From: Hemileia vastatrix
Lineage: Eukaryota; Basidiomycota; Pucciniomycetes; Pucciniales; Zaghouaniaceae
DNA length: 64,000 nucleotides
NCBI GenBank assembly: GCA_030280995.1
Contig: JASXTE010000014.1
Span: forward strand, 8,968,656-9,032,655
Direction: 5' to 3'
Part shown: piece by piece, positions 8,927 to 52,501 of the stretch
Position numbering within the stretch: position 1 is the stretch's first letter
Layout: every line of letters begins with the position of its first letter
Made by a program: the position numbers and the translations under genes
Notes under the pieces: generated by a model
What the model saw: only the letters and a program-made list of their open reading frames with translations
Databases searched by the model: none
Told to the model about the DNA's origin: nothing

Positions 8927-8931
8927 CAAAT

Positions 8932-9294
8932 ATGGAGTTTGAATTATGGAAGGACAGGATCCTCTATAAATTACCTATGTCATTGAGAGACTTGATAGTT
9001 GCTAGGACTGAGCTCTCAAGAGAACCTTCTTCTTTCATTAATACTTGTAATGAGATCCTTCTAAACAACAAGTATGGAGCTAGAAAATTCATTCCTAGAA
9101 ATCCATTGGAGAAACCCTCCAATTAATAACAGAAACCTCTGGAAAAGGTTGGTAAACCTTCTACCCCTCTTGCACCCAAAAAGTATACAATTGAACCTTT
9201 CCTCAAATGCAGCAAGGCTTGGCAGAAAGGCCATGTTTGTGAAAAGAAGATACATCTTGTTGAGCAGACAGAGGAACATGCTGATGACACAATA
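8932..9294 (+). pseudogene. C-plus gag fragment, capsid C-terminus and zinc knuckle
   Basis: This resumes the C-plus gag after A3: MEFELWKDRILYKLPMSLRD, then ARTELSREPSSFINTCNEIL, ending in a degraded zinc knuckle where the first Cys pair is damaged but CSKAWQKGHVC is readable in a shifted frame. It is cut at 9294 by B-prime. An inverted copy of the same 363 bp sits at 49683-50045 inside element B. Confidence 0.85.
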
Positions 9295-10796: not shown

Positions 10797-10978
10797 CTCG
10801 CACACCCAAAAAAAACAATAAAAAAAATTGATAAGTTATACATTTTATTTTATTAATTTGTAATTTTCAGGTATTCAGAATAAATCTGTAGCATTAAAGA
10901 TTAAACTTTAAAGAAATAAAACATAATAAAATATTATGAGTACTGGTTTTTTAACCCCTCAGCTGGTTGAACAGAAAT

Positions 10979-16263: not shown

Positions 16264-17440
16264 TGGCAGCATAAAAATCCTTAGGACTGAGTATTTCTTA
16301 TGCTTAAAATAAGATAACCTTAAGTAAATTAAGCTTATATCTTAAAAATAAGGTTAAAGTAATAATATATATTATTTTATTATATATATATATAATTATA
16401 ATTCTATTATATAACTTATAATAGTTTAAATAGCTTATCCATGGACTAATAATACTTATTATGGTGTTAATGGAGTCATAATATACTTATCTTAAGTGAT
16501 ATGAAGTAATTATTGACATACATAAGCTTATATGTATACATAAATCTCATATTCAGTGAAATACGCAGTATATTATGTATATTTAGGTATATAAGTGGGT
16601 TTAGCCCCTTAATAGCCTATAACCTTTGTTTTTCTGCTTATTTTAGGTCATTTGGACGAAATCAGTGGACTCAAAATGCCTAAAGAAGCATAGACACCTA
16701 TATCAGGCGCATACACCCAGTTTGGACAACTAAAATTACTTCCTTGGATGGTTATTCACGGATTTATGGGTTGAAAGGATATTTCTGGGTTAATGTGGAG
16801 GCTTGGGGATGTTATTGGGGGCTTGGACATTTTATTTGTTTCCTTTATATGCTTTTGGTTTCATTAAATCTCTTTTTGACAGTATATTTTACCTGTTTCT
16901 TTATGGTATCCGCTTTTATCTGGATTTTCTATTTATGGTATGGATCTGTGTTATTATTAATTGTGATGGAGGGTCCTTACTGGAGGTCTGGGTGTGGAAA
17001 CTGCTTGAAGTGGACGCCATGGGGAAGTGATGGGCCCTCACAGTGCTTTAATTGCTGGGGATAGCAGTGACATCATCTGGATTGAAGGTCTGTGCACTCC
17101 AGTGGATTTGGGTATAAGTAAGGAGGTATTTTGACGGTTATTTATCATCATTCAATTACTACAACTCCAAAAAACACTACAATACAATTTTTAACATTTA
17201 GAAATATATTATAAAGCCATTATAAATTGATATTGTCTTTATATTAAGCTATAACTATATTTTATACATCTATTTTCCACCACTAGCACGCATTTAAATC
17301 CAAGTATTGTGAGTTTTATTTGAGTATAACTATTTTATTAGTCTTTTCCTGAGGTTTAATCACTAAATCATTTATCAATAAGTAGTAGGACCATAAATAA
17401 ACACTTTTATATCATACTTATATACTAGACTATACTGACA
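16264..17440 (+). repeat. A2 5' LTR
   Basis: 1177 bp, from TGGCAGCATAAAAATCC (the intact A start is TGTCAGCCTAAATATCC) to ACTGACA, followed by ATTGGGGGTCTTTCC, the presumed primer-binding site. It contains TATATAAG at 16588-16595, an acceptor-like TGCTTATTTTAG about 45 bp later, and the hydrophobic LTR ORF (16744-17064). Confidence 0.95.
16588..16595 (+). promoter_or_regulatory. TATA box of A2 5' LTR
   Basis: TATATAAG in the middle of the LTR, conserved at the same place in A1 and the solo LTR. It would start transcription about 30 bp downstream, placing the GC-richer LTR tract in the transcript leader. Inferred from position and consensus. Confidence 0.6.
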
Positions 17441-17950
17441 ATTGGGGGTCTTTCCTTATATTTTACTTATTATTTAGTATAAGCCTTGGGACGTGAAATT
17501 TACCTTAGTACAGATCAAAATAACCAAATATTTGGGTCTTCTGCATATTGGTGGGTCATGATAACTCAGTGATTGCGGAAAAGAACCCTTAAAATAATTT
17601 TACTAATTTTTTATCATAAAAATTAGATATTTACAGTAGTAACTGTACCCAATATAAACCCAATTTCACTTGGTATTTAAACACCAATATAACACCCAAT
17701 TAAATTGGTATTTGGTTATAGCTTGGTAAGCTATTTATTCACCCTTATAGAGGTCTAGTTAAACCTATTATTATATTTCTAACAAATTTTTTCAAATTTT
17801 TCTTATAATTTATCTAAATAAATAAAGATATAAATTCAGGGTAAGCTCCATTGCTTTTTTATTAGTTATATAGTTGCTAATATCTTTTGTCTACTAATTC
17901 CATAGAGTTTTTTCCTTTTGTAGACGTAAAATATTGTCATTTTTAACAAT
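17441..17950 (+). other. A2 5' leader (non-coding)
   Basis: Starts with the primer-binding-like ATTGGGGGTCTTTCC and is otherwise AT-rich. It carries repeated ATTGGTATTTGG-type motifs near 17670-17720. The last part has a long pyrimidine stretch ending in TTTTGTAG (about 17923), acceptor-like, shortly before the ATG at 17951. No coding potential is seen. Confidence 0.6.
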
Positions 17951-17971
17951 ATGAGTTCTCCCCAGGACAGT

Positions 17972-18026
17972 GTAAGTGAAAATCCTGCTTATAACACCAG
18001 GTCTAAAGCTAACAAAAACTTTCCAG
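17972..18026 (+). other. Candidate intron 1 of A2 gag leader (55 nt)
   Basis: GTAAGT donor exactly after seven codons (MSSPQDS), branch-like GCTAAC, acceptor TTTCCAG. Removing it joins the start codon in frame to GAC ATC ACC ATG GAG, the altORF frame. The perfect CTAAC lies 15-20 nt before the acceptor, as in fungal introns. Confidence 0.6.
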
Positions 18027-18496
18027 GACATCACCATGGAGGGTCAACAATACCCCCAGGCAGAAAGCATGAGTATAGAGGAAAAAGACGCCCTCTTAAA
18101 AAAGATAACTATAAAAATGACATCTCCTCCTCTTCTTATTCAACTGTCCCACCTGGCCAAACAGGCTCTGAAGTTGGAAGAATCAAAATCACTCATGTTC
18201 AAAGAGGTAGAGCAGTTGCAAAACAATTGCAAGGTAGGGTTTCAGAAGATGAATCAGGCATTGGCAGAGTTAAAGGGAGGCCAGCCCAGTCAGTAAAATC
18301 AGCAACCCCCTATCCAAGGTGGGTCAACTCACTCCCAGGAGAAAATCCTGGTAGAAAAATGGAAATGGGACTGGTTTCATCAACAGTGGACAAGCCACAG
18401 TTGCAACAGGGATCCACCACCTCATCTGACTTCCTCAGCTCACCCTTACAAAGGAAAAATGCTCCAAAAATCAGGACTGGCAACCATCCCATGGTA
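18027..18496 (+). pseudogene. A2 copy of the overlapping gag-leader frame (altORF)
   Basis: Second frame (+1 relative to Gag-Pol), 155 codons from the exon-2 start to the conserved Pro-Trp-stop. It keeps the coiled-coil start MSIEEKDALLKKITIK, the EKWKWDWFHQQW block and HPYK. One stop (TCA to TAA, near 18292) interrupts it. Across the overlap A1 and A2 differ at about 12 residues in this frame against about 23 in the Gag-Pol frame. That suggests this frame is the more constrained one. Confidence 0.6.
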
Positions 18497-18554
18497 AGTA
18501 GACTACCCTCTCAGATTGACCAGATTGAACATAATACTGATAATTACAATATAG
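18494..18554 (+). other. Candidate intron 2 of A2 gag leader (61 nt)
   Basis: Donor GTAAGT right after CCATG, branch-like ACTGATA, acceptor AATATAG followed by GTAATTC. The 61-nt length is 1 modulo 3 like its five counterparts. Expression is unproven. Confidence 0.5.
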
Positions 18555-21500
18555 GTAATTCTATTGATGTTAAATCTGTGCAAAAAATAGAGGAGCATTT
18601 AAGAAATTTAGGTTTTAGAGTAGATACACCTGAATTGTCTTTTGTTCACAATAGCAGTACTATTTATAATGATAATCGAGTTAACCCTCAGTTGCAACCA
18701 CCTACTAGTGAGATGAGAAGTTCACAGGAGAGTGAGAGAATTGAAAAGGAAGACATAGAATATTTTAACAATAATCCAACTGTCCATAGAATTTTTTCAG
18801 CATTGTGGAATAGAATGACTGATTGTGAGGAACAGACATTTAAGCTCACTAGTGATACAATTTCATCCTTGACATTAAACATTTCTCAATTAGCAACACA
18901 TAACAAAGAATTAGAGAAAGAACATTTGTCTCTAACTCTTAAATATGATTCATTGAGTAATAAATATAATGATCTTTCAAACAAATTCTGTGAGCTAGAA
19001 AAATTATATGAAACACATTTATTAAAGACTGAATCAAGAACAAAGTTATCTTTTGCCCAGACAAATCAAAGTGTCTCTGAGTTGCTACAAAGATTAACTA
19101 AATTTGAGATTGAAACTGCCAATCTACTAATGAACCAGGATAATCATAAGTATAATCAATATAATAATAATCCTTTCATTGGCAAAAGTGAATCTCATTC
19201 CTTCCCTATACCACCACAATTAAAACCATCTGGTGGTAGTGTCAAATCTGAAAATGTAAGTCACAAATCCATGCAGGACGAAATACAAGACCATTTATCA
19301 AAAGTGAATGAGTTGTTGAATTTACCTGAGATTAGTGAGATAAAATCCAATCAGAAAAACTGGCGTAAGGTAGATCAGTACCCAACTTATGATAGGGAAG
19401 CCAGCTCTGATTGGCAACATTTTATTCAAAGAATTGACAACTTGAAATTCTCATATAAGTTACCAGATGAAGAAATAACATCAAAATTAATTTCTTTATT
19501 TAAGGATGTTGCTTTATTATGGTTTGAAGCTGTCTTGAGTGAGGGTAAAGATTACTCTTGGGCTGAATGGAAACAACTTATTGAAAAACAATTTGGAGGT
19601 TCTAAATTCAGGCTTACTCAGCAGAGACTTTATGAGAAGACTAGCTATAATCCGTTGAATGGTGACAAAACTATGGTATTTTTAATGTATTTAAACAAAA
19701 AATTAAAATCCATTGAGCCTCATATGTATTTTAACTTATGGAAAGATAAGATAATATATAAATTACCTATATCTGTCAGAGACATTGTTGTAGCTAGAAC
19801 ATTAAATGTTACTTAATATTCTGACTTTATTAATATTTGCAATGAAATATTATTAAACCATAAGTATGAATCAAGGTATTCCACTTATAAACAAAATGTT
19901 GAACCTGTAAAAACTCAGAATTCAAAAACACTTCAGGAGAAGCAGAAAAAACCTACTTCACCTGTAGTACCTAAAAAGAATGAAACAAATACTTGTTATA
20001 AGTGTAACAAACCTTGGGTCAAAGGTCACAAATATGAGTTGAAAATCAATGTGAATCTGAAACTGAAACTGAAAAAAGTAAAGAATCAAGTGATTATGAC
20101 AGCAATATCTCATATAGTGATGAAAATGAAGTCTGTATGTTGGAAGATGATTTGTCCATCTTTTAAAATCCAATATTAAATATGGACTCAAATGAATCTT
20201 TAATGAATTTTGAGGATGCTGAAATCATTAAGGATATACAAGCTGATAACTTTAGAATGACACCTATCACGGTTCCAGCTATCATTTCTGGTGAAAATGT
20301 TAATATAGTACTGGACACAGGAGCTGCTGGTTCTGTTGTTTCCACTAATACATTACAGAAAATTGATTGTGAATATAGGTTTAAGCTTGAACCACTTCAA
20401 AATAAAAATTGGAGAGGTTTTGGATCAGTGCTACACCCCATCGGTAAATACAAAGCTGCTGTTTTCTTTAAACACCAACATGGTTATGTAAGGGTAACTT
20501 GTGACTTTTTAATAATGGATAATACTAACTGTAGTAACTCTTTTATCATTGGAAATCATATTCTGACTAAATTTGGTGTAAAATAAGACCCTGCTAATAA
20601 CAATTTTACAATTGGAATGAATGGTAAGAGGAAATTTAAAATAAATTCTTTTAACACAGTCTTACACATTAAGTCAGTAACAAATTCCCCATGTAAAGGA
20701 AGAGAATCCAATGAGATGGAACTTCTGGAAACAGAAATTTCAAAAGCATCATTTGGCACTCAGATAAGTAAAGCTGAGAAAGATAATATTTTGGAATTAA
20801 TTAAAGCTTTTGCAATGGCTTTTGCACATGGTACAAATGAACTTGGCCTTGTAAAAGATCATGAAATGAAGATTAGTTTAACCTGTGATATGGATAATAT
20901 TCCTGCTAGTCTTTAAAAGAAACCATACCCTGCTTCACCAATGAAGAGGAAAGACATAGAGGATAATATTAAGATGTTATTACAAATAAACATTCTTAAG
21001 AAGTTTGAAACTACACCAAAATATTGTGTAATATCACCAGTGCTAATTTCTTATGAAAAAGATAAAGCAAGACTGTGCGGTGATGATAGAGCATTAAATA
21101 CTATTACAGTAGATGATATTAATCCCTTGCCAAGGATTGCCTCTATACATGCTACCCTTAAAGGTGCTAAATATATAAGTTGCCTAGATGGAAATAAAGG
21201 GTACCATCAAATTCCTGTTGAAAAGAATTCACAGAACTTTTTGTTAATAAAAACACACATGGGAATTTATAAGTATGTCAGAATGCCATTTGGACCAAAA
21301 AATGCTCCATCAGTATTTCAGAAGTTAATGGATATAACATTCCATAATGAAATGATTGAGGGATGGTTAATGGTATACATTTATGACATCATAGTGTTCT
21401 CAAAAACTTATGATGAACACTTAATCCATTTAAGGAAAGTATTTCAAAAAATGGATGAAATAAAAATGACCCTTGCATTGAAAAAATGTAAATTTGGGTT

Positions 21501-22861
21501 TAGATCTTTAGAAGTGCTTGGTCATATTGTATCTGGCTTACAAATATGTGTTGACCAAAATAAAGTGGCTGCAATAAAGAATATTGGAATTCCTCAAAAT
21601 TTAAAGGATGTACAATCTTTTCTTGGAATTTGTGGTTATTATAGACAATATATAAAAAACTACCAATCAATTGCTGCACCACTGACCACACTGATAAAGA
21701 AATCAGAAGCTTTCATTTGGAATAATGAAAGACAACAGGTTTTGATAAGTTGAAAGAATGTTTAATGACAGCTCCTATCTTAGGATTACCAGATTTCCAA
21801 TTACCTTTTGTATTATATACAGATGCAAGTTTTATTGGACTGGGTGCTGCTTTGCATCAAAAACAACTTATTGAAGGAAAAAGGTCTGAAGTAGTAATCT
21901 GCTATATTTCACGTACTCTGAGAAGTAGTGAATTGAAATATGGTGCTACTCAACTTGAATGTTTGGCAGTAGTATGGGCTCTTGAGAAGCTACATTATTA
22001 CCTTGAAGAACAAAAATTTGAGTTAATAACTGACTGTAGTGCAGTTAAGTCACTCTTAAACATGAAAACTCCTAATAGACACATGTTTAGATGGCAATTA
22101 GCTGTACAAGAATACAGAGGCCAGATGACTATTACACATAGAGCAGGAACCTTGCACTCTAATGTAGATCTGTTATCTAGAGTACCTCTGCCTAATAATG
22201 ATGATAATCCTGCTTATGTTCCTGAGTCAGAGATTATTAAGATTTATGGCATTTATATTGTAGATATTGAGGATGAATATATGCAATCAATTCTTGATAA
22301 TTATGCTTCAGATCCTGACTTGAGTAAATTAACTACAATATTAAATGATCCATCTAATGCTTCAATGAATGTTTTAATAAAAACATTACCAATAAAGTAT
22401 AAAGAGGCATTAGAAAAAGGAAAATTTTCCATTGAGGATGGTTTTATATATTACAGGAAAAAATTAAGTAATGTAAATGTAATTCCCCCTTCAATGAAGG
22501 AGTTAATGTTAAGTATATGTCATGATGATATATTAGCAGGTCATTTTGACTACCATAAAACATTAACCAGAGTAAAAAACACAGCTTGGTGGATTAACAT
22601 GTCTGAGGATGTTCAGAAATATGTTGAAACATGTGATTCTTGTCAAAAATCTAAAAGATTAACAGGAAAAAGTGCTGGTTTATTACAACAAATTGAGCAA
22701 CCGAAAGCTCCATGGGAAATCATTAACATGGACTTTGTAACAGGTTTGCCAATAGCAGGGAATAAGAGTTATAACTCCTGCAGGGTAATTGTAGATAGAT
22801 TTACAAAGATGTGTAAATTTATTCCTACCCATAAAGAGGTTTCTGCAAAGGACTTAGCTTT

Positions 22862-24038
22862 TGTCAGTATAGTCTAGTATATAAGTATGATATAATAGTG
22901 TTATTTTATGGTCCAACTACTTATTAATAAATGATTTAGTGATTAAACCTCAGGGGAAGACTAATAAAATAGTTATACTCAAGTTAAACTCACAATACTT
23001 GGATTTAAATGCGTGCTAGTGGTGGAAAATAGAAGAATAAAATATAGTTATAGCTTTTATAAAGATAATATCAATTTATAAGGGCTTTATAATATATTTC
23101 TAGATGTTAATAATTGTAGTGTAGTGTTTATTTGAAGTGTAGTAATTGAATGATGATAATAAACCGTCAAAATCCCTCCTTACTTATACCCAAATCCACT
23201 GGAGTGCACAGACCTTCAATCCAGATGATGTCACTGCTATCCCCGGCAATTACAGCACTGTGAGGGCCCATCACCTCCCCATGGCGTCCACTTCAAGCAG
23301 TTTCAACACCCAGACCTCCAGTAAGGACCCTCCATCACTATTAATAATAACACAGAGTCATACCATAAATAGAAATCCCAGATAAAAGCGGATACCATAA
23401 AGAAACAGGTAAAATAAAAGATCAAAAAGAGATTTAATGAAACTAAAAGCATATAAAGGAAACAAATAAAATGTCCAAGCCCCCAATAACATCCCCAAGC
23501 ATCCACATTAACCCAAAAACATATTTCCAACCCATAAATCCGTGAATAACCATCCAAGGAAGTAATTTTAGTTGTCCAAACTGGGTGTATGCGCCTGATA
23601 TAGGTGTCTATGCTTCTGTAGGCGTTGTGAGTCCACTGATTTCGTCCATATGACCTAAAATAAGCAGAAAAACAAAGGTTATAGGCTATTAAGGGGCTAA
23701 AACCCACTTATATACCTAAATATACATAATATACTGCATATTTCACTGAATATGAGATTTATGTATACATATAAGCTTATGTATGTCAATAATTACTTCA
23801 TATCACTTAAGATAAGTATATTATGACTCCATTAACACCTTAATAAGTATTATTAGGCCATGGATAAGCTATTTAAACTATTATAAATTATATAATAGAA
23901 TAATAATTATATATATATATATTAAAATAATATATATTATTATTTTAACCTTATTTTTAGGATATAAGCTTAATCTAATTAAGGTTATCTTATTTTAAGC
24001 ATAAGAAATACTCAGTCCTAAGGATATTTAGGCTGACA
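22862..24038 (-). repeat. A1 3' LTR
   Basis: 1177 bp; on the minus strand it runs from TGTCAGCC (24038) to ACTGACA (22862). It is preceded on the element strand by the polypurine tract at 24039-24050. It carries the 134-codon hydrophobic LTR ORF (23303-23707). Confidence 0.97.
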
Positions 24039-24050
24039 CTCCCTCACTCC
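24039..24050 (-). promoter_or_regulatory. A1 polypurine tract
   Basis: GGAGTGAGGGAG immediately before the 3' LTR on the element strand, the usual place for plus-strand DNA priming. Comparable tracts precede the 3' LTRs of A2 (GGGGTGAGTGAG), A3, B (GGGTGGGCGAG) and D (AGAGTGAGGGAG). Confidence 0.8.
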
Positions 24051-24156
24051 AAAAAAAAACAATAAAAAAAAATGTTAAGACATTTTAATTAATCTTAAGG
24101 AATGAAATAATAAAATAAAAAAGAATTTTTATAATACATATACTGAATGAACAGTA

Positions 24157-27100
24157 TTATTTAGATTTAAATTTTTTCAAGAGATTTTTAAGATCAGAGA
24201 TTTCATTTTCTGGAATCCACTGGTCATATTCACTTGATTTATTTTTAAATCTTAGTAGATACTCAACTCCCTTTTCTTTTGTAAGGTGTCTCTTTTTGAG
24301 TATCTTTTCAATTTCTGCTTTTTCCACTATTTCTTCAGGTTGCTGTTTATGCCTTCCTGATCTTCTTGGAAAGAGAGCAGTATCATTAGAGTGGTATGGT
24401 TTTATAAGAGAAATAGGAAATACTGGATGTTTTCTATCATAAGGTGCATATAGAATAACCTCAACAGCATTATTACCAACCATCTTTTTAACTACAAATG
24501 GTCCAATGAATGGATCCTTCAATTTAACATTACCATTTAAATTGAAATGTAGCGTTGAAATAAGGACTTCATCACCCTCTTTGAACATTTGTTCTTTATG
24601 GGCTTTATCCCATCTTTTCTTTTCATACTCAAAAGCCTTATTTATACATTCTTGAGCATGTTTTCTGCATAGTTCTTGCATCTGAAGAAAAGATTTAGTA
24701 CCTGGATGAATATCCAATCTAGGTAACTTATTAAGAGTTTTAGCAGGGGTATTAGGTACATAACCCAACCATAACTCAAATGGCTTTTTGCCAGTGACAG
24801 AATGTACTGTACTATTATATGCAAATTCTAAACCTGGGATAAGGGTTACCCAATCATGCGTGAATATGTCATTGTCTTTAAAATTTAGACCAAAAGCACA
24901 GTATCTTCTTATCATATCTTCTAAGGTTTGTATCATTCTTTCTGCTAGCCCATCAGTTTGTGGATGGTGTGCTGTAGAAAGTTTTAATTGACACCCTGAA
25001 ACATCCATAAGTGACGTCCAGAACTCAGAAGTAAATTTAGGATCTCTGTCTGAAACTATTGCTTTGGGGAAACCTGCTGTATTTAACATTTGTGTCCACC
25101 ATAAAAAAGCTAAGTCCTTTGCAGAAACCTCTTTGTGGGTAGGAATAAATTTACACATCTTTGTAAATCTATCTACAATTACCCAGCAGGAGTTATAACT
25201 CTTATGCCCTGCTATTGGCAAACCTGTTACAAAGTCCATGTTAATGATTTCCCATGGAGCTTTTGGTTGCTCAATTTGTTGTAATAAACCAGCTCTTTTT
25301 CCTGTTAATCTTTTAGATTTTTGACAAGAATCACATGTTTCAACATATTTCTGAACATCCTCAGACATGTTAATCCACCAAGCTGTGTTTTTTACTCTGG
25401 TTAATGTTTTATGGTAGTCAAAATGACCTGCTAATATATCATCATGACATATACTTAACATTAACTCCTTCATTGAAGGGGGAATTACAATCACATTACT
25501 TAATTTTTTCCTGTAATATATAAAACCATCCTCAATGGAAAATTTTCCTTTCTCTAATGCCTCTTTATACTTATCTGGTAATGTTTTTATTAAAACATTC
25601 ATTGAAGCATTAGATGGATCATTTAATATTGTAGTTAATTTACTTAAGTCAGGATCTGAATTATAATTATCAAGAATTGATTGCATAAATTCATCCTCAA
25701 GATCTACAATATAAATGCCATAAATGGTAATAATCTCTGATTCAGGAACATAAGCAGGATTATCATCATTATTAGGCAGAGGTACTCTAGATAACAGGTC
25801 TACATTAGAGTGCAAGGTTCCTGCTCTATGTGTAATAGTCATCCGTCCTCTGTATTCTTGTACAGCTAATTGCCATCTAAACATGTGTCTATTAGGAGTT
25901 TTCATGTTTAAGAGTGACTTAACTGCACTACAGTCAGTTATTAACTCAAATTTTTGGTCTTCAAGGTAATAATGTAGCTTTTCAAGAGCCCATACTACTG
26001 CCAAACATTCAAGTTGAGTAGCACCATATTTTAATTCACTACTTCTCAGAGTACGTGAAATATAGCAGATTACTACTTCTGACATTTTACCTTCAATAAA
26101 TTGTTTTTGATGCAAAGCAGCACCCAGTCCAATAAAACTTGCATCTGTATATAATACAAAAGGTAATTGGAAATCTGGTAATCCCAAGATTGGAGCTGTC
26201 ATTAAACATTCTTTCAACTTATTAAAAGCTTGTTGTCTTTCATTATTCCAAATGAAAGCTTCTGATTTCTTTATCAGTGTGGTCAGTGGTGCAGCAATTG
26301 ATTGGTAGTTTTTTATATATTGTCTATAATAACCACACATTCCAAGAAAAGATTGTACATCCTTCACATTTTGGGGAATGCCAATATTCTTTATTGCAGC
26401 CACTTTATTTTGGTCTACACATATTTGTAAGCCAGATACAATATGACCAAGCACTTTTAAAGATTCAAACCCAAATTTACATTTTTTCAATGCAAGGGTC
26501 ATTTTTATTTCATCCATTTTCTGAAATACTTTCCTTAAATGGATTAAGTGTTCATCAAAAGATTTAGAGAACACTATGATGTCATCAATGTATACCATTA
26601 ACCATCCCTCAATCATTTCATTATGGAATGTTATATCCATTAATTTTTGAAATACTGATGGAGCATTCTTTGGTCCAAATGGCATTCTGACATACTTATA
26701 AATTCCCATGTGTGTTGTTATCAACAAAAAGTTCTGTGAATTCTTTTCAACAGGAATTTGATGGTACCCTTTATTTCCATCTAGGCAACTTATATATTTA
26801 GCACCTTTGAGGGTAGCATGTATAGAGGCAATCCTTGGCAAGGGATAAATATCATCTACTGTAAATGTATTTAATGCTCTATAATCACCGCACAGTCTTG
26901 CTTTATCTTGTTCATAAGAAATCAGCACTGGTGATATTACACAATATTTTGGTGTAGTTTCAACCTTCTCAAGAATATTCATCTTTAATAACATCTTAAT
27001 ATTATCCTCTATGTCTTTCCTCTTCATTGGTGAAGCAGGATATGGTTTCTTTTTAAGACTAGCAGGAATATTATCCATGTCACAGGTTAAACTAATTTTC

Positions 27101-30024
27101 ATTTCATGATCTTTTACAAGGCCAAGTTCATTTGTACCATGTGCAAAAGCCATTGGAAAAGCTTTAATTAATTCCAAAATATTATCTTTCTCAGTTTCAC
27201 TTATCTGAGTGCCAAATGATGCTTTTGAAATTTCTGTTTCCAGAAGTTCCATCTCATTGGATTCTCTTCCTTTAGACGAGGAATTTGTTACTGACTCAAT
27301 GTGTAAGACTGTGTTAAAAGAATTTATTTTAAATTTCCTTTTACCATTCATGCCAATTGTAAAATTGTTATTAGCAGGGTCTAATTTTACACCAAATTTA
27401 GTCAGAATATCATTTCCAATGATAAAACAGTTACTACAATTTGTATTATCCATTACTACAAAGTCACAAGTTACCCTTACATAACCATGTTGGTGTTTAA
27501 AGAAAACAGCAGCTTTGTATTTACCAATGGGGTGTAGTACTGATCCAAAACCTCTCCAATTTTTATTCTGAAGTGGTTCAAGCTTAAACTTATATTCACT
27601 ATCAATTTTCTGTAATGTATTAGTGGAAACAACTGAACCAGCAGCTCCTGTGTCCAATACTATATTAACATTTTCACCAGAAATGATAGCTGGAACCGTG
27701 ATAGGTGTCATTTTAAAGTTATCAGCTTGTATATCCTTAATGATTTCAGCATCCTCAAAATTCATTAAAGATTCATTTGAGTCCATATTTAATATTGGAT
27801 TTTCAAAGATGGACAAATCATCTTCCAACATACAGACTTCATTTTCATCACTATATGAGATATTGCTGTCATAATCACTTGATTCTTTACTTTTTTCAGT
27901 TTCAGTTTCAGATTCACGTTGATTTTCAACAATATTTATGTTTTTCTCACATTTGTGACCTTTTACCCAAGGTTTGTTACACTTATAACAAGTATTTGTT
28001 TCATACTTTTTAGGTACTACAGGTGCAGTAGGTTTTTTCTGCTTCTCCTGAAGTGTTTTTGAATTCTGAGATTTTACAGGTTCAACATTTTGTTTATAAG
28101 TGGAATACCTTGATTCATACTTATGGTTCAATAATATTTCATTGCAAATATTAATAAAATCAGAATATTCAGTAACATTAAATGTTCTAGCTACAACAAT
28201 ATCTCTGACAGATATAGGTAATTTGTAAATTATCTTATCTTTCCATAAGTTAAAATCCATATGAGGCTCAATGGCTTTTAAGATTTTGTTTAAAGTCATT
28301 AAAAATACCATAGGTTTGTCACCATTCAACGGATTATACCTAGTTTTCTCATACAGTCTCTGCTGAGTAAGCCTGAATTTAGAACCTCCAAATTGTTTTT
28401 CAATAAGTTGTTTCCATTCAGCCCAAGAGTAGTCTCTACCCTCACTTAAGACAGCTTCAAACCATAATAAAGCAACATCCTTAAATAAAGAAATTAATTT
28501 TGATGTTATCTCTTCATCTGGTAACTTATATGAGAATTTCAAGTTGTCAATTCTGTGAATAAAATGTTGCCAATCAGAGCTGGCTTCCCCATCATAAGTT
28601 GGGTACTGATCTATCTTAGGCCAGTTCTTCTGATTGGATTTTATCTCACTAATCTTAGGTAAATTCAACAACTCATTTACTTTTGATAAATGGTCTTGTA
28701 TTTCTTCCTGCACGGATTTGTGACTTACATTTTCAGATTTGACACTACCACCAGATGGTTTTAATTGTGGTGGTACAGGGAAGGAATGAGATTCACTTTT
28801 GCCAATGAAAGGATTATTATTATATTGATTATACTTATGATTATCCTGGTTCATTAGTAGATTGGCAGTTTCAATCTCAACTTTAGTTAATCTTTGTAGC
28901 AGCTCAGAGACACTTTGATTTGTCTGTGCAAAAGATAACTTTGTTCTTGATTCAGTTTTTAATAAGTGTGTTTCATATAATTTTTCTAACTCACAAAATT
29001 TGTTTGAAAGGTCATTATATTTATTACTCAATGAATCATATTTAAGAGTTAGAGACAAATGTTCTTTTTCTAATTCTTTATTACGTGTTGCTAATTGAGA
29101 AATGTTCAATGTTAAGGATGAAATTGTATCACTAGTGAGCTTAACTGTCTGTTCCTCACAATCAGTCATTCTATTCCACAATGCTGAAACAATTCTATGG
29201 ACAGTTGGATTATTGTTAAAATATTCCATGTCCTCCTTTTCAATTCTCTCACTCTCCTGTGAACTACTCATCTCACTAGTAGGTGGTTGCAACTGAGGAT
29301 TAACTGTATTATCATTGTATATAGTACTGTTATTATGGATAAAAGACAAGTCAGGTGTATCTACTCTAAAACCCAAATTTCTTAAATCCTCCTCTATTTT
29401 TTGTACAGATTTAACATCAATAGAATTACCTATATTGTAATTATCAGTATTATGTCTAATCTGAGGGGGTAAGTTACTTACCAAGGGATGGTTGCCAGGC
29501 CTGATTTTTGGCGCTTTTTTCCCTTGTAAGGGTGAGCTGAGGAAGTCAGATGAGGGGGTGGATCCCTGTTGCAACTGTGGCTTGTCCACTGTTGGTGAAA
29601 CCAGTCCCATTTCCATTTGTCTACCAGGATTTTCTCCTGGGAGTGAGTGGACCCTCCTTGGGTAGGGGGTTGCTGATTTGATTGACTGGGCAGGCCTCCC
29701 TTTAATTCTGCCATTGCCTGATTCATCTGCTGAAATCCTACCTTGCAATTGTTTTGCAACTGCTCTACTTCTTTGAACATGAGAGATTTTGATTCCTCTA
29801 GCTTCAGAACCTGTTTGGCCAGGTGGGACAGTTGATCCTGAAGAGGAGGAGACGTCTTTTTGATAGTTATCTTTTTTAAGAGGGCGTCCTTTTCCTCTAC
29901 ACTCATGCTTTCTGGTTGGGGGTACTGTTGTCCCTCCATGGTGATGTCCTGGAAAGTTTTTATTAGCTTTAGACCTGGTATTATAAGCAGGCTGTTCACT
30001 TACACTATCCTGAGGAGCACTCAT
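24157..30024 (-). CDS. A1 Gag-Pol polyprotein, intact chromovirus
   Basis: 1955 residues in one frame. Seen in order: basic Ser/Pro-rich N-terminus, coiled coil (about 305-360), gypsy-type capsid (about 467-635), zinc knuckle C-x2-C-x7-H-x-C (679-692), protease DTGA (791-794), RT with GYHQIP and YIDD (1145-1148), RNase H starting at Asp1294 (TDAS), integrase zinc domain (His at 1527, later CDSCQ), catalytic Asp1597, Asp1659 and Glu1695 with exactly 35 residues between the last two, and a C-terminal chromodomain (about 1904-1955) with YLLRFK and QWIP. These make it a chromovirus that forms particles, reverse transcribes and integrates; chromodomains of this class bind methylated H3 in known cases. 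Gag and Pol are not separated by a stop, so stoichiometry must be set post-translationally. Start chosen at the first ATG after the leader, shared with A2. Confidence 0.97.
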   Translation of the reverse strand: MSAPQDSVSEQPAYNTRSKANKNFPGHHHGGTTVPPTRKHECRGKGRPLKKDNYQKDVSSSSGSTVPPGQTGSEARGIKISHVQRSRAVAKQLQGRISADESGNGRIKGRPAQSIKSATPYPRRVHSLPGENPGRQMEMGLVSPTVDKPQLQQGSTPSSDFLSSPLQGKKAPKIRPGNHPLVSNLPPQIRHNTDNYNIGNSIDVKSVQKIEEDLRNLGFRVDTPDLSFIHNNSTIYNDNTVNPQLQPPTSEMSSSQESERIEKEDMEYFNNNPTVHRIVSALWNRMTDCEEQTVKLTSDTISSLTLNISQLATRNKELEKEHLSLTLKYDSLSNKYNDLSNKFCELEKLYETHLLKTESRTKLSFAQTNQSVSELLQRLTKVEIETANLLMNQDNHKYNQYNNNPFIGKSESHSFPVPPQLKPSGGSVKSENVSHKSVQEEIQDHLSKVNELLNLPKISEIKSNQKNWPKIDQYPTYDGEASSDWQHFIHRIDNLKFSYKLPDEEITSKLISLFKDVALLWFEAVLSEGRDYSWAEWKQLIEKQFGGSKFRLTQQRLYEKTRYNPLNGDKPMVFLMTLNKILKAIEPHMDFNLWKDKIIYKLPISVRDIVVARTFNVTEYSDFINICNEILLNHKYESRYSTYKQNVEPVKSQNSKTLQEKQKKPTAPVVPKKYETNTCYKCNKPWVKGHKCEKNINIVENQRESETETEKSKESSDYDSNISYSDENEVCMLEDDLSIFENPILNMDSNESLMNFEDAEIIKDIQADNFKMTPITVPAIISGENVNIVLDTGAAGSVVSTNTLQKIDSEYKFKLEPLQNKNWRGFGSVLHPIGKYKAAVFFKHQHGYVRVTCDFVVMDNTNCSNCFIIGNDILTKFGVKLDPANNNFTIGMNGKRKFKINSFNTVLHIESVTNSSSKGRESNEMELLETEISKASFGTQISETEKDNILELIKAFPMAFAHGTNELGLVKDHEMKISLTCDMDNIPASLKKKPYPASPMKRKDIEDNIKMLLKMNILEKVETTPKYCVISPVLISYEQDKARLCGDYRALNTFTVDDIYPLPRIASIHATLKGAKYISCLDGNKGYHQIPVEKNSQNFLLITTHMGIYKYVRMPFGPKNAPSVFQKLMDITFHNEMIEGWLMVYIDDIIVFSKSFDEHLIHLRKVFQKMDEIKMTLALKKCKFGFESLKVLGHIVSGLQICVDQNKVAAIKNIGIPQNVKDVQSFLGMCGYYRQYIKNYQSIAAPLTTLIKKSEAFIWNNERQQAFNKLKECLMTAPILGLPDFQLPFVLYTDASFIGLGAALHQKQFIEGKMSEVVICYISRTLRSSELKYGATQLECLAVVWALEKLHYYLEDQKFELITDCSAVKSLLNMKTPNRHMFRWQLAVQEYRGRMTITHRAGTLHSNVDLLSRVPLPNNDDNPAYVPESEIITIYGIYIVDLEDEFMQSILDNYNSDPDLSKLTTILNDPSNASMNVLIKTLPDKYKEALEKGKFSIEDGFIYYRKKLSNVIVIPPSMKELMLSICHDDILAGHFDYHKTLTRVKNTAWWINMSEDVQKYVETCDSCQKSKRLTGKRAGLLQQIEQPKAPWEIINMDFVTGLPIAGHKSYNSCWVIVDRFTKMCKFIPTHKEVSAKDLAFLWWTQMLNTAGFPKAIVSDRDPKFTSEFWTSLMDVSGCQLKLSTAHHPQTDGLAERMIQTLEDMIRRYCAFGLNFKDNDIFTHDWVTLIPGLEFAYNSTVHSVTGKKPFELWLGYVPNTPAKTLNKLPRLDIHPGTKSFLQMQELCRKHAQECINKAFEYEKKRWDKAHKEQMFKEGDEVLISTLHFNLNGNVKLKDPFIGPFVVKKMVGNNAVEVILYAPYDRKHPVFPISLIKPYHSNDTALFPRRSGRHKQQPEEIVEKAEIEKILKKRHLTKEKGVEYLLRFKNKSSEYDQWIPENEISDLKNLLKKFKSK
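29430..29481 (-). other. Candidate intron 2 of A1 gag leader (52 nt)
   Basis: Donor GTAAGT inside the Trp codon of the conserved Pro-Trp, branch-like TACTGATAA, acceptor CAATATAG, then GTAATTC. Whether spliced or not, the altORF reads TGG then TAA. Confidence 0.5.
29478..30024 (-). CDS. A1 altORF: spliced overlapping product, about 163 aa
   Basis: Predicted join of codons 1-7 of Gag (30024-30004) to the +1 frame from 29948, ending Pro-Trp-stop at 29478. The frame is open throughout. It reads as a Leu/Glu/Lys-rich coiled-coil-like stretch (MSVEEKDALLKK onward), then DKWKWDWFHQQW, HPYKG, a basic cluster GKKRQK, and IPW. The same order recurs in families B, C and D. An internal ATG in excellent context (ACCATGG, codon 4 of exon 2) could also start it by leaky scanning. 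Possible roles are an alternative Gag N-terminus or a small nucleic-acid-binding accessory protein. No known domain is recognised. Confidence 0.55.
29949..30003 (-). other. Candidate intron 1 of A1 gag leader (55 nt)
   Basis: GTAAGT donor after seven codons, branch-like GCTAATA, acceptor TTTCCAG. Spliced, it joins AGT to GAC ATC ACC in the altORF frame; unspliced, the Gag-Pol frame is open through it (PAYNTRSK). Length, donor and branch match A2, B and D. Confidence 0.6.
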
Positions 30025-30535
30025 ATTGTTCAGAATAACAATATTTTACGTCTACAAAAGGAAAAAACTCTGTGGAATTAGTAGACAAAAGATATTAGTA
30101 ATTATATTACTAATAAAAAAGCAATGGAGCTTACCCTGAATTTATATCTTTATTTATTTAAATAAAATATAAGAAAAATTCGAAAAAATCTGTTAAAAAT
30201 ATAATAATAAGTTTAACTAGACCTTTATAAGGGTGAATAATTAGCTTACCAAGCTTTAGCCAAATACCAATTTAATTGGGTGTTATATTGGTGTCCAAAT
30301 ACCAAGTGAAATTGGGTTTATATTGGGTACAGTTACTACTGTAAATATCTAATTTTTATAATAAAAAATTAGTACAATTATTATAAGGATTCTTTTCCGC
30401 AATCAATGAGTTATGATGACCCACTAATATGCAGCAGACCCAAATATTTGGTTAATTTTGAGTTATACTAAGGTAAAAATCACGTCCCAAGGCTTATACT
30501 AAATAATAAGTAAAATATAAGGAAAGACCCCCAAT
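30025..30535 (-). other. A1 5' leader (non-coding)
   Basis: On the element strand it begins ATTGGGGGTCTTTCC directly after the 5' LTR (presumed primer-binding site), then AT-rich sequence with ATTGGTATTTGG-type repeats. It ends with a pyrimidine-rich stretch and TTTTGTAG, acceptor-like, about 30 nt before the ATG. No ORF of note. Confidence 0.65.
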
Positions 30536-31712
30536 TGTCAGTACAGTCTAGTATATAAGTATGATATAATAGTGTTATTTTATGGTCCAACTACTTATTA
30601 ATAAATGATTTAGTGATTAAACCTCAGGGGAAGACTAATAAAATAGTTATACTCAAGTTAAACTCACAATACTTGGATTTAAATGCGTGCTAGTGGTGGA
30701 AAATAGAAGAATAAAATATAGTTATAGCTTTTATAAAGATAATATCAATTTATAAGGGCTTTATAATATATTTCTAGATGTTAATAATTGTAGTGTAGTG
30801 TTTATTTGAAGTGTAGTAATTGAATGATGATAATAAACCGTCAAAATCCCTCCTTACTTATACCCAAATCCACTGGAGTGCACAGACCTTCAATCCAGAT
30901 GATGTCACTGCTATCCCCGGCAATTACAGCACTGTGAGGGCCCATCACCTCCCCATGGCGTCCACTTCAAGCAGTTTCAACACCCAGACCTCCAGTAAGG
31001 ACCCTCCATCACTATTAATAATAACACAGAGTCATACCATAAATAGAAATCCCAGATAAAAGCGGATACCATAAAGAAACAGGTAAAATAAAAGATCAAA
31101 AAGAGATTTAATGAAACTAAAAGCATATAAAGGAAACAAATAAAATGTCCAAGCCCCCAATAACATCCCCAAGCATCCACATTAACCCAAAAACATATTT
31201 CCAACCCATAAATCCGTGAATAACCATCCAAGGAAGTAATTTTAGTTGTCCAAACTGGGTGTATGCGCCTGATATAGGTGTCTATGCTTCTGTAGGCGTT
31301 GTGAGTCCACTGATTTCGTCCATATGACCTAAAATAAGCAGAAAAACAAAGGTTATAGGCTATTAAGGGGCTAAAACCCACTTATATACCTAAATATACA
31401 TAATATACTGCATATTTCACTGAATATGAGATTTATGTATACATATAAGCTTATGTATGTCAATAATTACTTCATATCACTTAAGATAAGTATATTATGA
31501 CTCCATTAACACCTTAATAAGTATTATTAGGCCATGGATAAGCTATTTAAACTATTATAAATTATATAATAGAATAATAATTATATATATATATATTAAA
31601 ATAATATATATTATTATTTTAACCTTATTTTTAGGATATAAGCTTAATCTAATTAAGGTTATCTTATTTTAAGCATAAGAAATACTCAGTCCTAAGGATA
31701 TTTAGGCTGACA
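30536..31712 (-). repeat. A1 5' LTR
   Basis: 1177 bp, same as the 3' LTR except for one noticed base (30544). It carries the promoter for the element: TATATAAG on the minus strand at 31381-31388. Confidence 0.97.
31381..31388 (-). promoter_or_regulatory. TATA box of A1 5' LTR
   Basis: TATATAAG on the element strand. It is the only good TATA in the LTR and is conserved in A2 and the solo LTR. Downstream lie an acceptor-like TGCTTATTTTAG and the GC-richer tract. Confidence 0.6.
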
Positions 31713-32666
31713 GCTTTTTTATGGTGGACACAAATGTTAAATATAGCAGGTTTCACCAAAGCAATAGTTTCTGACAGAGATCCTAAATTTACTTCTGAGT
31801 TCTGGACATCACTTATGGATGTTTCATGGTGTCAATTAACACTTTCTACAGCACACCATCCACAAACTGATGGGCTAGCAGAAAGAATGATACAAACCTT
31901 AGAAGATATGATAAGAAGATACTGTGCTTTTGGTCTTAATTTTAAAGACAATGACAAATTCACTCATGATTGGGTAACCCTTATCCCAGGTTTAGAATTT
32001 GCATACAATAGTACAGTACATTCTGTCAATGGCAAAAAGCCATTTGAGTTATGGTTGGGTTATGTACCTAATACCCCTGCTAAAACTCTTAATAAGTTAC
32101 CTAGATTGGATATCCATCCAGGTACTAAATCTTTTCTTCAGATTCAAGAATTATGCAGAAAACATGCTCAAGAATGTATAAATAAGGCGTTTGAGTATGA
32201 AAATAAAAGATGGGATAAAGCCCATAAAGAACAAATGTTCAAAGAGGGTGATGAAGTCCTTATTTCAACAATAAATTTCAATTTAAATGGTAATGTTAAA
32301 TTGAAAGATCCATTCATTGGACCATTTGTAGTTTAAAAGATGGTTGGTAATAATGCTGTTGAGGCTATTTTATATGCACCATATGATAAAAAACATCCAG
32401 TATTTCTTATTTCTCTTATAAAACCATACCATTCTAATGATACTGCTCTATTTCCAAGAAGATCAGGAAGGCATAAACAGCAACCTGAAGGAATAGTTGA
32501 AAAGGCAGAAATTGAAAAGATACTTAAAAAGAGACACCTTACTAAAGAAAAGGGAGTTGAGTATCTATTAAGATTTAAAAATAAATCAAGTGAATATGAA
32601 CAGTGGACTCCAGAAAATGAAATCTCTGATCTTAAAAATCTCTTGAAAAAATTTAAATCTAAATAA
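31713..32666 (+). pseudogene. A2 gag-pol, 3' part: integrase core and chromodomain
   Basis: Continues the A2 integrase after A1. It contains the second catalytic Asp (SDRDPKFTS), TDGLAERM with the Glu, the integrase C-terminal domain (LGYVPNTP, GDEVLIST, GPFVV), then a chromodomain ending at 32666. One stop (TAA, 32334-32336) separates GPFVV from the KMVGNN block. The first five bases (GCTTT) are the duplicated target. It cannot be translated as part of a full polyprotein. Confidence 0.94.
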
Positions 32667-32787
32667 TACTGTTCATTCAGTATATGTATTATAAAAATTA
32701 TTTTTTTTATTTTTTTTTCACTCCTTAGTTTTAATTAAAATGTCTTAACATTTTTTTTTATTTATTGTTTTTTTTGGGGTGAGTGAG

Positions 32788-33964
32788 TGTCAGCCTAAAT
32801 ATCCTTAGGACTGAGTATTTCTTATGCTTAAAATAAGATAACCTTAAGTAAATTAATCTTATATCTTAAAAATAAGGTTAAAGTAATAATATATATTATT
32901 TTATTATATATACATATAATTATAATTCTATTATATAACTTATAATAGTTTAAATAGCTTCTTTATGGCCTAATAATACTTATTAAGGTGTTAATGGAGT
33001 CATAATATACTTATCTTAAGTGATATGAAGTAATTATTGACATACATAAGCTTATATGTATACATAAATCTCATATTCAGTGAAATATGCAGTATATTAT
33101 GTATATTTAGGTATATAAGTGGGTTTTAGCCCCTTAATAGCCTATAAAATTTGTTTTTCTGCTTATTTTAGGTCATATGGACGAAATCAGTGGACTCACA
33201 ACGCCTACAGAAGCATAGACACCTATATCAGGCGCTACACCCAGTTTGGACAACTTAATTTACTTCCTTGGATGGTTATTCACGGATTTATGGGTTGGAA
33301 GGACATTTCTGGGTTAATGTGGATGCTTGGGGATGTTATTGGGGGCTTGGAAATTTTATTTGTTTCCTTTATATGCTTTTAGTTTCATTGAATCTCTTTT
33401 TGATTATTTATTTTACCTGTTTCTTTATGGTATCTGCTTTTATCTGGATTTTCTATTTATGATATAGATCTGTGTTATTATTAATAGTCATGGAGGGTCC
33501 TTACTGGAGGTCTGGGTGGTTAAACTGCTTGAAGTGGACGCCATGGGGAGGTGATGGGCCCTCACAGTGCTGTAATTGCCGGGGATAGCAGTGACATCAT
33601 CTGGATTGAAGGTCTGTGCACTCCAGTGGATTTGGGTATAAGTAAGGAGATATTTTGACGGTTATTTATCATCATTCAATTACTACAACTCCAAAAAACA
33701 CTACTATACAATTATTAACATTTAGAAATATATTATAAAGCCATTATAAATTGATATTATCTTTATATTAAGCTATAACTATATTTTATTCATCTGTTTT
33801 CCACCACTAGCACGCATTTAAATCCAAGTATTGTGAGTTTTATTTGAGTATAACTATTTTGATAGTCTTCCCCAGAGGTTTAATCATTAAATCATTTATC
33901 AATAAGTAGTAGGACCATAAATAAACACTGTTATATCATACTTATATACTAGACTATACTGACA
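32788..33964 (+). repeat. A2 3' LTR
   Basis: 1177 bp, TGTCAGCC to ACTGACA, preceded by GGGGTGAGTGAG. It differs from the A2 5' LTR at a number of positions, including the damaged 5' LTR start, so A2 is clearly older than A1. Confidence 0.95.
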
Positions 33965-33969
33965 ATTTT

Positions 33970-37759: not shown

Positions 37760-37817
37760 CTGAAGGAACTGGATAAGTAACAAGAAATGGTACTTGAGAT
37801 TCAATAGAGGGACTTAC
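37760..37817 (-). other. Candidate intron 2 of C-minus gag leader (58 nt)
   Basis: GTAAGT donor inside the Trp codon of Pro-Trp, pyrimidine-rich CAGTTCCTTCAG acceptor, then GTAATTC. It is the C-family counterpart of the A, B and D sites, with the same 1 modulo 3 length. Confidence 0.5.
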
Positions 37818-38292
37818 CAAGGCTTGGGCACGATCTGAATATTGTTTTTTCTTTTTTTTCCTCTTTGATAAGGGTGAGGATGTGTTGAATTGAATTGACT
37901 GGGTCTTGACAGACCTTCCTGAGGTATTTTAGGCTTCTTTTGAGACAAATAATCCCACTGGGTGTTTAACCAATCCCACTTCCACTTTGAAACTTCCACC
38001 TTTTCTTGTTTCTGAGGAGCCAATTGTGGAAGATCCCTGGGGGGAGGAGGTCTCCTCTTCTCTTGAAGAAAAGCATCTATTTTTCTTACCATTTCTTCTA
38101 GTGAGTCTGTTCTTGCTCTCAGTCTTAAGTTCTCTTTCCTCAGTTTCTTTATGTCGGTGGATAGATTCTTTACTCTCTGAGGTAAAGGCTTTTTTTTGAA
38201 GCCTTTGGGAAGTCATTCTGGGGGTTGATAGATGTCTTTTGTTCCTGAGCATTTGTTTCCACACAAATCTCCACTTCCTCCATTTCCACATC
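37814..38292 (-). pseudogene. C-minus copy of the overlapping gag-leader frame (altORF)
   Basis: Second frame read on the minus strand. It shows a leucine/lysine-rich coiled-coil-like run upstream of the ATG at 38092 (KKLRKENLRLRARTDSLEEM), then VSKWKWDWLNTQWDY, HPYQRG, basic GKKRKNN and VPKPW-stop at 37814. The frame from exon 2 (GAT GTG GAA ATG) is displaced by one base relative to the rest, suggesting a small indel, possibly in the A8 run near 38190. It preserves every landmark of the A1, B and D altORFs. Confidence 0.55.
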
Positions 38293-42125: not shown

Positions 42126-42146
42126 ATGTGTGACAACAGTGACATT

Positions 42147-42204
42147 GTAAGTAATAAGGCAAAACCTTATAACTTAAGAACTAGAGCTGAAAGACCTGTT
42201 ACAG
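42147..42204 (+). other. Candidate intron 1 of B gag leader (58 nt)
   Basis: GTAAGT donor after seven codons, branch-like GCTGAAA, acceptor CTGTTACAG. Splicing joins ATT in frame to AGC ATC CAA ATG GAG, the altORF. The frame outcome is the same as in A1, A2 and D. Confidence 0.6.
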
Positions 42205-42662
42205 AGCATCCAAATGGAGTGTCAAGAATCACCAGTAACAATAAACAACACCCCACCAATGTCCATGGAGGAAAAGGAAAAGCTCTTAAAACAAATGTCA
42301 ATAAAGAAGTCCAAAAACACCTTACAAGAGCAAATTCACTCCCTCTCAACCCTACTGAATACACTATCAATAAGAGTAAATAATATGTTAGACCAGATCA
42401 ACAATCTGGAGAAAAGGGCGGCACAGGGCTTTATAGAAGTCAACCAGGCTCTAGTGGATATAAGGTCTCATCAACAACCAGTGGCACCAAATACCACAGC
42501 AACACCTCCAGTCCCAGAAGAGGACCAAAAGATAACTGTAAGCAAATGGAAGTGGGATTGGTATGCCCAAAACTACAACAGTCCTCCTCAACAGGGATCC
42601 AGCCGTCACCCTTACAGGGGAAAGCCAAGGAGAGGCAGGGGAAATTGAATAAGACCGTGGTA
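42205..42662 (+). pseudogene. B copy of the overlapping gag-leader frame (altORF)
   Basis: Second frame: MSMEEKEKLLKQMSIKK coiled-coil start, GFIEVNQAL, VSKWKWDWYAQNY, HPYRG, basic GKPRRGRG, one stop (TGA at 42646-42648), then IRPW-stop. Similarity to A1 in this frame is obvious along its whole length. The Gag-Pol frame over the same bases has its own stop at 42381 and looks unlike A1. Confidence 0.6.
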
Positions 42663-42717
42663 AGTCATCCATCTTCTCAAGATCAATTATATAATCCTAA
42701 CAATGAATTACTTATAG
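42660..42717 (+). other. Candidate intron 2 of B gag leader (58 nt)
   Basis: GTAAGT donor after CCGTG, a perfect branch-like CCTAACAAT 19 nt before the acceptor TTACTTATAG, then GTAATG. It is the best-formed of the six equivalents. Confidence 0.55.
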
Positions 42718-50045: not shown

Positions 50046-50050
50046 ATTTG

Positions 50051-52450: not shown

Positions 52451-52501
52451 ATGGATAAATTACATGTGGATGAGATTGAAGTGGATGGTGACACTGAATC
52501 T

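Follow-up and report, generated by a model that had tools for sequence, protein, structure and literature searches.

A 64,000-nucleotide stretch of the genome of the fungus Hemileia vastatrix (contig JASXTE010000014.1, positions 8,968,656 to 9,032,655; called the window below) contains six retrotransposon copies, A1, A2, A3, B, C-minus and D, in which the start of gag is overlapped by a second reading frame. The copy to which the others are compared here is A2, a chromodomain Ty3-type long terminal repeat (LTR) retrotransposon on the minus strand. Judged from the sequence, the second frame is under purifying selection and corresponds to the second exon predicted for a spliced mRNA, the translation of which would begin at the Gag-Pol AUG. 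With a probability of roughly 0.88, small introns serve here as a reading-frame switch, unspliced RNA giving Gag-Pol and spliced RNA giving an accessory protein.

The proposed mechanism starts with unspliced RNA, which would be translated from the shared AUG into one Gag-Pol polyprotein, with intron 1 and the overlap read through in its first ~180 residues. Removal of intron 1 would join the same AUG and the first codons to the other frame, giving an accessory protein of ~163–185 amino acids (aa) across the families. Intron 2 begins inside the accessory stop codon, and its removal would remake the stop, as in the A and C copies seen. One and the same cell would produce and translate both RNAs, and the accessory protein would bind the unspliced RNA through coiled-coil multimerisation and a basic tail, leading to protection from splicing and/or to export.

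Selection on the overlapping frames

A preliminary description of the window had noted that the landmarks of the second frame follow one another in the same sequence in A1, A2, A3, B, C-minus and D. Alignments bear this out, with lapses in two copies (GKWDW in A3, WKWDY in D). With the A2 second frame as query, tblastn (composition adjustment and masking off) reaches B (E 8e-26), D (2e-12) and C (5e-9); with the first 200 Gag-Pol residues, it reaches A copies only at E<=1e-2. The frame had been located correctly in 29478–30024, a span that really consists of exon 1, intron 1, exon 2 and the stop. The conserved part of the second frame does not reach back to the upstream stop but begins at the splice acceptor (29948). 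The introns had been overlooked, though they would explain how one AUG can serve two frames. Additional copies come from 150 kb of further genome sequence searched by tblastn, namely C2 (L032), A4, A5, C3 and D2 (L043); C3 and A5 are both on L037.

Within exon 2, changes are found mainly at the third position of second-frame codons, in three families separately. The differences at second-frame positions 3/1/2 are 51/21/10 for A2-A3, 75/27/25 for C2-C3 and 36/17/20 for D-D2; the ten A pairs together (not independent of one another) give 307/107/90. Downstream of the overlap, the changes are mostly at the Gag third position (at Gag positions 1/2/3, 177/117/261 for the A pairs pooled, 20/23/52 for C and 19/22/44 for D). 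The lower number of residue changes in the second frame between A1 and A2, put earlier at about 12 against about 23 in the Gag frame, holds on a recount over exon 2 (14/156 against 28/155).

The ratio of nonsynonymous to synonymous change (dN/dS), which the preliminary description had proposed computing for each frame, was obtained by scoring what every change does in each of the two frames. For A2-A3, C3-C2 and D2-D taken together, dN/dS in the overlap is 0.40 for the second frame, not near 1, and 1.41 for the Gag frame (0.92–2.32 per pair). In the control region downstream of the overlap the order is reversed, 1.66 for the second frame and 0.63 for the Gag frame. By this measure, the Gag frame in the overlap is without residue-level constraint.

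What is kept in the Gag frame is its openness. As reported earlier, it is open in A1, A2 and D, with 0 stops in exon 2, and the same is true of A4, A5 and D2; B has 1 stop, C2 and C3 have 2 each, and A3 has 4. The remaining (third) frame has 10–16 stops. When the second-frame peptide is recoded using the element's codon usage, ~12–15 Gag-frame stops arise on average (~12 for A2, A4 and D2, where none is observed). No simulation was as low as observed among 5000 per copy for six copies (A2, A4, D2, B, C2 and C3), or among 20000 for A1 and A2. Changes that are synonymous in the second frame and create Gag stops number 1.5, where the rates predict ~8. Over exon 2, the Gag frame is selected for openness, not for residues. 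The dual coding suggested at the outset, with an accessory protein as its product, is supported by the codon-position test, by dN/dS and by the depletion of Gag-frame stops. The basic charge of the Gag frame was also considered as a selected trait and dropped, the recoded controls carrying much the same charge.

Predicted introns and the copies that lack them

In A2, exon 1 (30004–30024, minus strand, as for the other A2 features) has the shared AUG and 7 codons (MSAPQDS), an N-terminus common to both products. Removal of the predicted intron 1 (29949–30003; 55 nt, GTAAGT...CTAAT...TTTCCAG) moves translation from the Gag frame into the second frame, so that the shared AUG is joined to the latter in phase. 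Exon 2 (29482–29948) is dual-coding, its second frame specifying the coiled coil, WKWDW, HPYKGKKRQK and PW. Intron 2 (29430–29481; 52 nt, GTAAGT...CTGAT...ATAG) begins inside the TGG TAA stop, and its removal remakes TGG TAA. Two more introns are predicted in the leader. Leader intron a (30190–30249; 60 nt, GTAAGC...AACAG) is missing from the genomic copies L047 and L048, and leader intron b (30070–30134; 65 nt, GTAAGC...TACTAAT...CACAG) is missing from L048 and L050; in L047 it falls within a longer deletion.

Among the window copies, the second frame is intact across exon 2 only in A2. In A1 (plus strand), intron 1 (17972–18026, 55 nt) is followed by exon 2 (18027–18493), which has a single second-frame stop common to A5, and by intron 2 (18494–18554, 61 nt). 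A3 (plus strand) has 2 second-frame and 4 Gag-frame stops in exon 2 (2307–2767), an intron 2 of 52 nt (2768–2819) and an unrecognisable intron-1 donor. B (plus strand) has a 7-codon exon 1 (42126–42146), an intron 1 of 58 nt (42147–42204; GTAAGT...TTACAG, without a CTRAY branch site), an exon 2 with 1 stop per frame (42205–42659) and an intron 2 of 58 nt with a CTAAC branch site (42660–42717). In C-minus (minus strand), exon 2 (37818–38292) is decayed and frameshifted, the intron-1 donor is off GTRAGT, and intron 2 (37760–37817; 58 nt) reads GTAAGT...TTCAG, then GTAAT. In D (plus strand), exon 1 (52451–52501) has 17 codons counted from that ATG, and intron 1 (52502–52556; 55 nt) has the donor GTAGGT, CTGAC and CTTCAG; three D-family copies elsewhere lack it. 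Exon 2 of D (52557–53068) has 1 second-frame stop and an open Gag frame, and intron 2 (53069–53123; 55 nt) reads GTGAGT...TTCAG, then GTAAT, without a CTRAY branch site.

In all six window copies, the second frame ends in TGG-TRA-GT, which reads also as the splice donor TG/GTRAGT. Elsewhere this intron-2 donor is GTAAGC in C2 and is lost in C3. The intron-1 donor is GTAAGT in A1, A2, A4, A5, B and C3, GTGAGT in C2, GTAGGT in D and D2, and GTAGTT in C-minus. Intron 1, 55–64 nt long, has a branch-like CTRAY in most copies (none in B, C2 and C-minus), and its acceptor is AAG in C2 and YAG in all others. Exon 1 comprises 7 codons in A and B, 17 in D and 24 in C. In D2 (L043:5416), another in-frame ATG precedes by 8 codons the one that D also has, and exon 1 of D2 may be longer. 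The intron sites are common to families whose exon-2 proteins are only ~21–39% identical to that of A2. A strict donor-branch-acceptor pattern has 7 matches on both strands of the window, 6 of them at these introns, a proportion that is only descriptive because the pattern was written after the introns were seen. The length differences of introns 1 and 2 in multiples of three are not independent evidence, because the open Gag frame forces them. Pyrimidine-rich YAG acceptor-like sites lie ~15–35 nt before the gag AUG in C2, C3, D and D2; the sequence suggests leader introns in families C and D too.

The preliminary description had allowed for an alternative Gag N-terminus as the product of the second frame. 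This finds no support, the accessory stop being kept with intron 2 present and remade after its removal. Splicing from donor 2 was considered as a source of such an N-terminus and rejected: when A1, A2, B, C2 and D were scanned for a branch site plus YAG, the sole acceptor common to A1, A2, B and C2, which lies 52–61 nt past donor 2, remakes the stop.

Natural copies of the spliced form were sought by scanning the genome for joined exons, with the reversed pattern as control (0 matches each time). The family A intron-1 junction has 7 matches (4 at 0, 2 at 1 and 1 at 2 mismatches). All seven are A elements without intron 1, six of them aligned letter by letter. A continuous open reading frame (ORF) of 163 aa, from the first AUG to the PW-stop, is present in five of the seven (L046, L048–L051) and broken in L047 and L052. 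The family A intron-2 junction has 6 matches (4 at 0, 1 at 1 and 1 at 2 mismatches), and all six lack intron 2. L048 alone is on both lists; L054–L058 retain intron 1 without intron 2. A script shows intron 2 still present in L046, L047, L049 and L050, and visual inspection shows the same for L051 and L052.

L048 lacks all four introns, that is, introns 1 and 2 and the leader introns of 60 and 65 nt. Around it (L053) lie a 5' LTR and part of a 3' LTR, which agree at 99.8% of the 465 compared nt. From near the accessory stop, 1778 codons are open as far as the end of pol. L048/L053 is otherwise colinear with A2, the sole further gap being 2 positions in the last piece. Since the four introns are missing and the LTRs and a colinear gag-pol are kept, it appears that spliced RNA was reverse transcribed, and L048/L053 is best read as a recent insertion of such an RNA. 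Its Gag-Pol frame beyond the accessory stop is open and disconnected from the first AUG.

In family D, the intron-1 junction has 5 matches at 2–3 mismatches. Three of these (L059–L061) belong to D elements that are, on balance, exactly 64 nt shorter than D2 at the predicted sites; the other two (L062, L063) show no similarity. In family C, there are 79 matches to the intron-1 junction (23 at 0, 15 at 1, 8 at 2 and 33 at 3 mismatches; control 0), of which two were read in detail. L064 lacks introns 1 and 2 and has an ORF of 185 aa ending in KPW-stop, and L065 lacks intron 1, its frame continuing beyond the place of the accessory stop. Many of the 33 matches at 3 mismatches read GATGGTGCTTCTCATGTGGAAATGG and possibly belong to another family. 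As known from genomic copies, exact removal of the predicted introns occurs in families A, C and D.

The accessory protein and competing explanations

In family A, the predicted accessory protein has 163 aa, 18.5–18.6 kDa and an isoelectric point of 8.7–9.2. Its net charge is -1 to -2 over residues 1–90 and +4 to +5 after residue 130. AF2 predicts with confidence a long helix at exon-2 residues 36–83 in A2 and 40–78 in D2, and a helix bearing the Trp motif at 102–125 and 100–127, respectively; the basic tail is of low confidence. Rev-type regulators combine a multimerisation region with a basic RNA-binding region; the confidently modelled long helix and the C-terminal net charge of +4 to +5 are candidates for these. 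No homologue was found among 5.8 billion proteins at E 0.001 or 0.01, with either the A2 second frame or an alignment of 8 as query, and a search with Gag-Pol residues 240–900 likewise found none. Pfam and PDB sequence searches with the accessory protein gave only weak generic coiled-coil matches.

A role on unspliced RNA is the simplest, since spliced RNA would be the protein's sole source and the unspliced form is required for Gag-Pol and the genome. Our tentative suggestion, held at somewhat less than even odds, is that the protein binds unspliced RNA for its protection from splicing and/or its export, in the manner of Cer1 CERV or HIV Rev. An accessory protein that is spliced in the same way but acts as an assembly or nucleic-acid chaperone, for example as a Gag scaffold, is doubtful without being far-fetched. 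The coiled coil, the Trp-rich helix and the basic tail would suit an RNA cofactor and a particle cofactor equally, and the spliced RNA itself appears to have been reverse transcribed and inserted. However, production from spliced RNA alone best suits a regulator of unspliced RNA, and the nearest parallel, CERV, is described as such a regulator in the part of the Cer1 account available (PMC10309623).

The second frame could also be reached by leaky scanning or internal initiation on unspliced RNA, at the exon-2 AUG (CACCATGG in A), with splicing incidental. The features of the leader bear on this. From the LTR to the Gag AUG there are 0 AUGs in 510 nt in A2, 1 in 507 in A1, 0 in 508 in A3 and 0 in 581 in B, where simulated leaders have ~5–8 on average. 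In the A2 LTR the last 411 nt are AUG-free, with 21 AUGs farther upstream. If transcription begins in these last 411 nt, the Gag AUG would be the first AUG of A2 and the start of both products. In A1, A2, A4, A5 and B no other AUG intervenes between it and the exon-2 AUG, which belongs to the second frame and, in A, has a good context, as leaky scanning would have it. However, in the ten copies checked the Gag AUG carries A at -3, the start of exon 2 lacks an AUG in copy D, and families C and D have additional AUGs downstream of the shared one and upstream of exon 2. The predicted splice connects the first AUG to the second frame in phase, and junction copies exist in A, C and D. Leaky scanning is judged weaker than splicing, and we consider it improbable.

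Still less probable is that the Gag frame over exon 2 is untranslated, with Gag starting downstream and only the second frame mattering. Such an arrangement would account for a Gag-frame dN/dS in exon 2 of ~1 or higher, both per pair and pooled, but not for the absence of Gag-frame stops from A2, A4 and D2 against recoded means of ~12, nor for the shortage of Gag-stop changes that are silent in the second frame. Least credible is that the introns are recent or host-imposed defects, the spliced copies dead ends and the frame conserved for RNA-level reasons, for although spliced A copies look few (the junctions have 7 and 6 matches, and near-identical unspliced copies number at least 40), the intron sites are common to families of widely differing exon-2 protein, and the changes track second-frame codon positions, which is not a product of RNA structure.

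Several observations weigh against the splicing switch itself. The evidence for splicing consists of genomic copies and sequence, and the function assigned to the protein is inferred from architecture and analogy. The intron-1 acceptor is off consensus in C2, as are the donors in A3 and C-minus. Of the 10 tabulated copies, 7 carry stops in the accessory frame, which is also frameshifted in C-minus and broken in two spliced D copies (a stop in exon 1 of L060, a frameshift in exon 2 of L059). No intron-less B copy was found (0 junction matches, with a pattern from one B copy). A3, which is outside the simulated set, has its 4 Gag-frame stops. The AF2 models are of low confidence overall, with pTM of 0.30 (A2) and 0.26 (D2). 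The spliced mRNA would keep ~5.3 kb of gag-pol past the accessory stop and is a likely target of nonsense-mediated decay. Finally, at least one sublineage, that of A1 and A5, seems to have spread after losing the full-length accessory product.

A1 (window position 17951) and A5 (L037:4792) have the accessory-frame stop in common, with the Gag frame open in exon 2. The accessory protein is therefore not strictly needed in cis, and its supply in trans is possible. As a counterweight to the stop-bearing copies, the 747.6-Mb host genome has at least 40 near-identical copies of the A2 overlap (40 of 1638 candidates scored), and among these 40 listed copies 15, A2 included, have the top score, which is identity over 547 nt to the intact A2.

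Element setting and related systems

A2 has the features of a chromovirus. Its LTRs, on the minus strand, lie at 30535–31712 (5') and 22861–24038 (3'), and the pair, 1178 bp long, is 99.9% identical. The Gag-Pol ORF (24157–30024, minus strand; 1955 aa) would be read from unspliced RNA and has protease (PR, weak), reverse transcriptase (RT), RNase H and integrase (IN) in that order within a single Gag-Pol (Pfam RVT_1, RNase H, H2C2 and rve), with a C-terminal chromodomain beyond the integrase (Pfam Chromo, 1904–1955, E 3e-7, above the cut-off). RVP is at the expected place and scores below the Pfam cut-off. A2 (22861–31712) is nested in A1 (16264–33967), whose two parts are on either side of it and whose LTRs (16264–17443 and 32788–33967) are ~95% alike. 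The window also has an inverted pair of 4-kb repeats (8639–12698 and 46280–50338, 99.2% identity).

The nearest known system is CERV of Cer1, a Ty3/gypsy-type element of C. elegans. The part of its description available reports CERV to be made from a spliced mRNA, partly in another frame over gag, and to be required for export of the genomic RNA (PMC10309623). The H. vastatrix elements would likewise make an accessory protein of an LTR retrotransposon from a spliced mRNA. The unspliced RNA of Cer1 is described as having no stop codon between gag and pol (PMC10309623), and unspliced A2 codes Gag-Pol in a single ORF. The sharing of the gag start by a spliced mRNA is seen here in intron-less genomic copies, and the use of a non-gag frame across the gag region in the position test and dN/dS. 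CERV too is described as starting with Gag-frame peptides and continuing in a different frame overlapping gag (exon 4), and as having a potential leucine zipper and a basic motif (PMC10309623). Unlike CERV, the entire second exon is out of frame here, the product has ~163–185 aa, and the stop lies inside gag, the accessory ORF ending at PW-stop. L048, the one copy read that lacks every intron, is colinear through pol, with no sequence from beyond pol joined on. HIV-1 Rev, treated in the same source (PMC10309623), offers an analogous case. Rev-type regulators are products of spliced RNA with a multimerising helix and a basic segment, and the protein proposed here would likewise act on unspliced RNA. 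Unlike them, it belongs to a chromodomain element with introns of 52–65 nt, and the likeness proposed is one of architecture, no sequence relation being claimed.

Other LTR retrotransposons are known to be spliced as well. BARE1 is reported, in the part of the account available, to have a facultative intron of 104 nt whose splicing makes Gag (PMC3735527). It resembles the present case in having a small gag-region intron in an LTR retrotransposon, the removal of which changes the frame and stops Pol (PMC3735527). However, splicing makes Gag in BARE1 and would make an unrelated protein in another frame here (PMC3735527); a subgenomic Gag of the BARE/copia kind is not what the spliced copies encode, which is the second frame and then a stop. 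Ogre, which splices between ORFs, and CRR, in which removal of rt leaves two ORFs, are likewise gypsy-type elements with spliced transcripts (as cited in PMC3735527). Unlike these two as cited there, the H. vastatrix elements would switch frame after the start codon to give an accessory protein over gag (PMC3735527). The additional ORFs of plant LTR retrotransposons are comparable in being conserved extra coding beyond Gag-Pol, but unlike the frame described here, none overlaps gag in the part of that account available (PMC7264820). Among the titles and abstract starts listed in searches of open-access papers, which leave most subscription journals outside, none describes a gene of this kind, spliced and lying over gag, for any chromovirus or fungal element. 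CRR itself is classed among the plant chromoviruses; on that classification, splicing is already known from the group.

The products of GAG-POL are considered, in the available part of the same account, to be sufficient for transposition of LTR retrotransposons (PMC7264820). In the window, several families keep a second gene, and annotation based on ORFs would miss exons that overlap gag in another frame. It is conceivable, at odds again a little short of even, that, independently of retroviruses and Cer1, overprinting at the beginning of gag produced a compact Rev/CERV-like regulator in this lineage of chromodomain elements, with an intron after the first codons as the frame switch and the Gag frame selected only for openness. 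The genome preserves the spliced products as natural copies, in which intron sites can be demonstrated without RNA. If the reading is true, splicing, used as a translational frame switch, would decide which of two unrelated proteins one AUG yields. This opens the question of how a retroelement saves its intron-bearing genomic RNA from splicing, and whether Rev-like control arose repeatedly.

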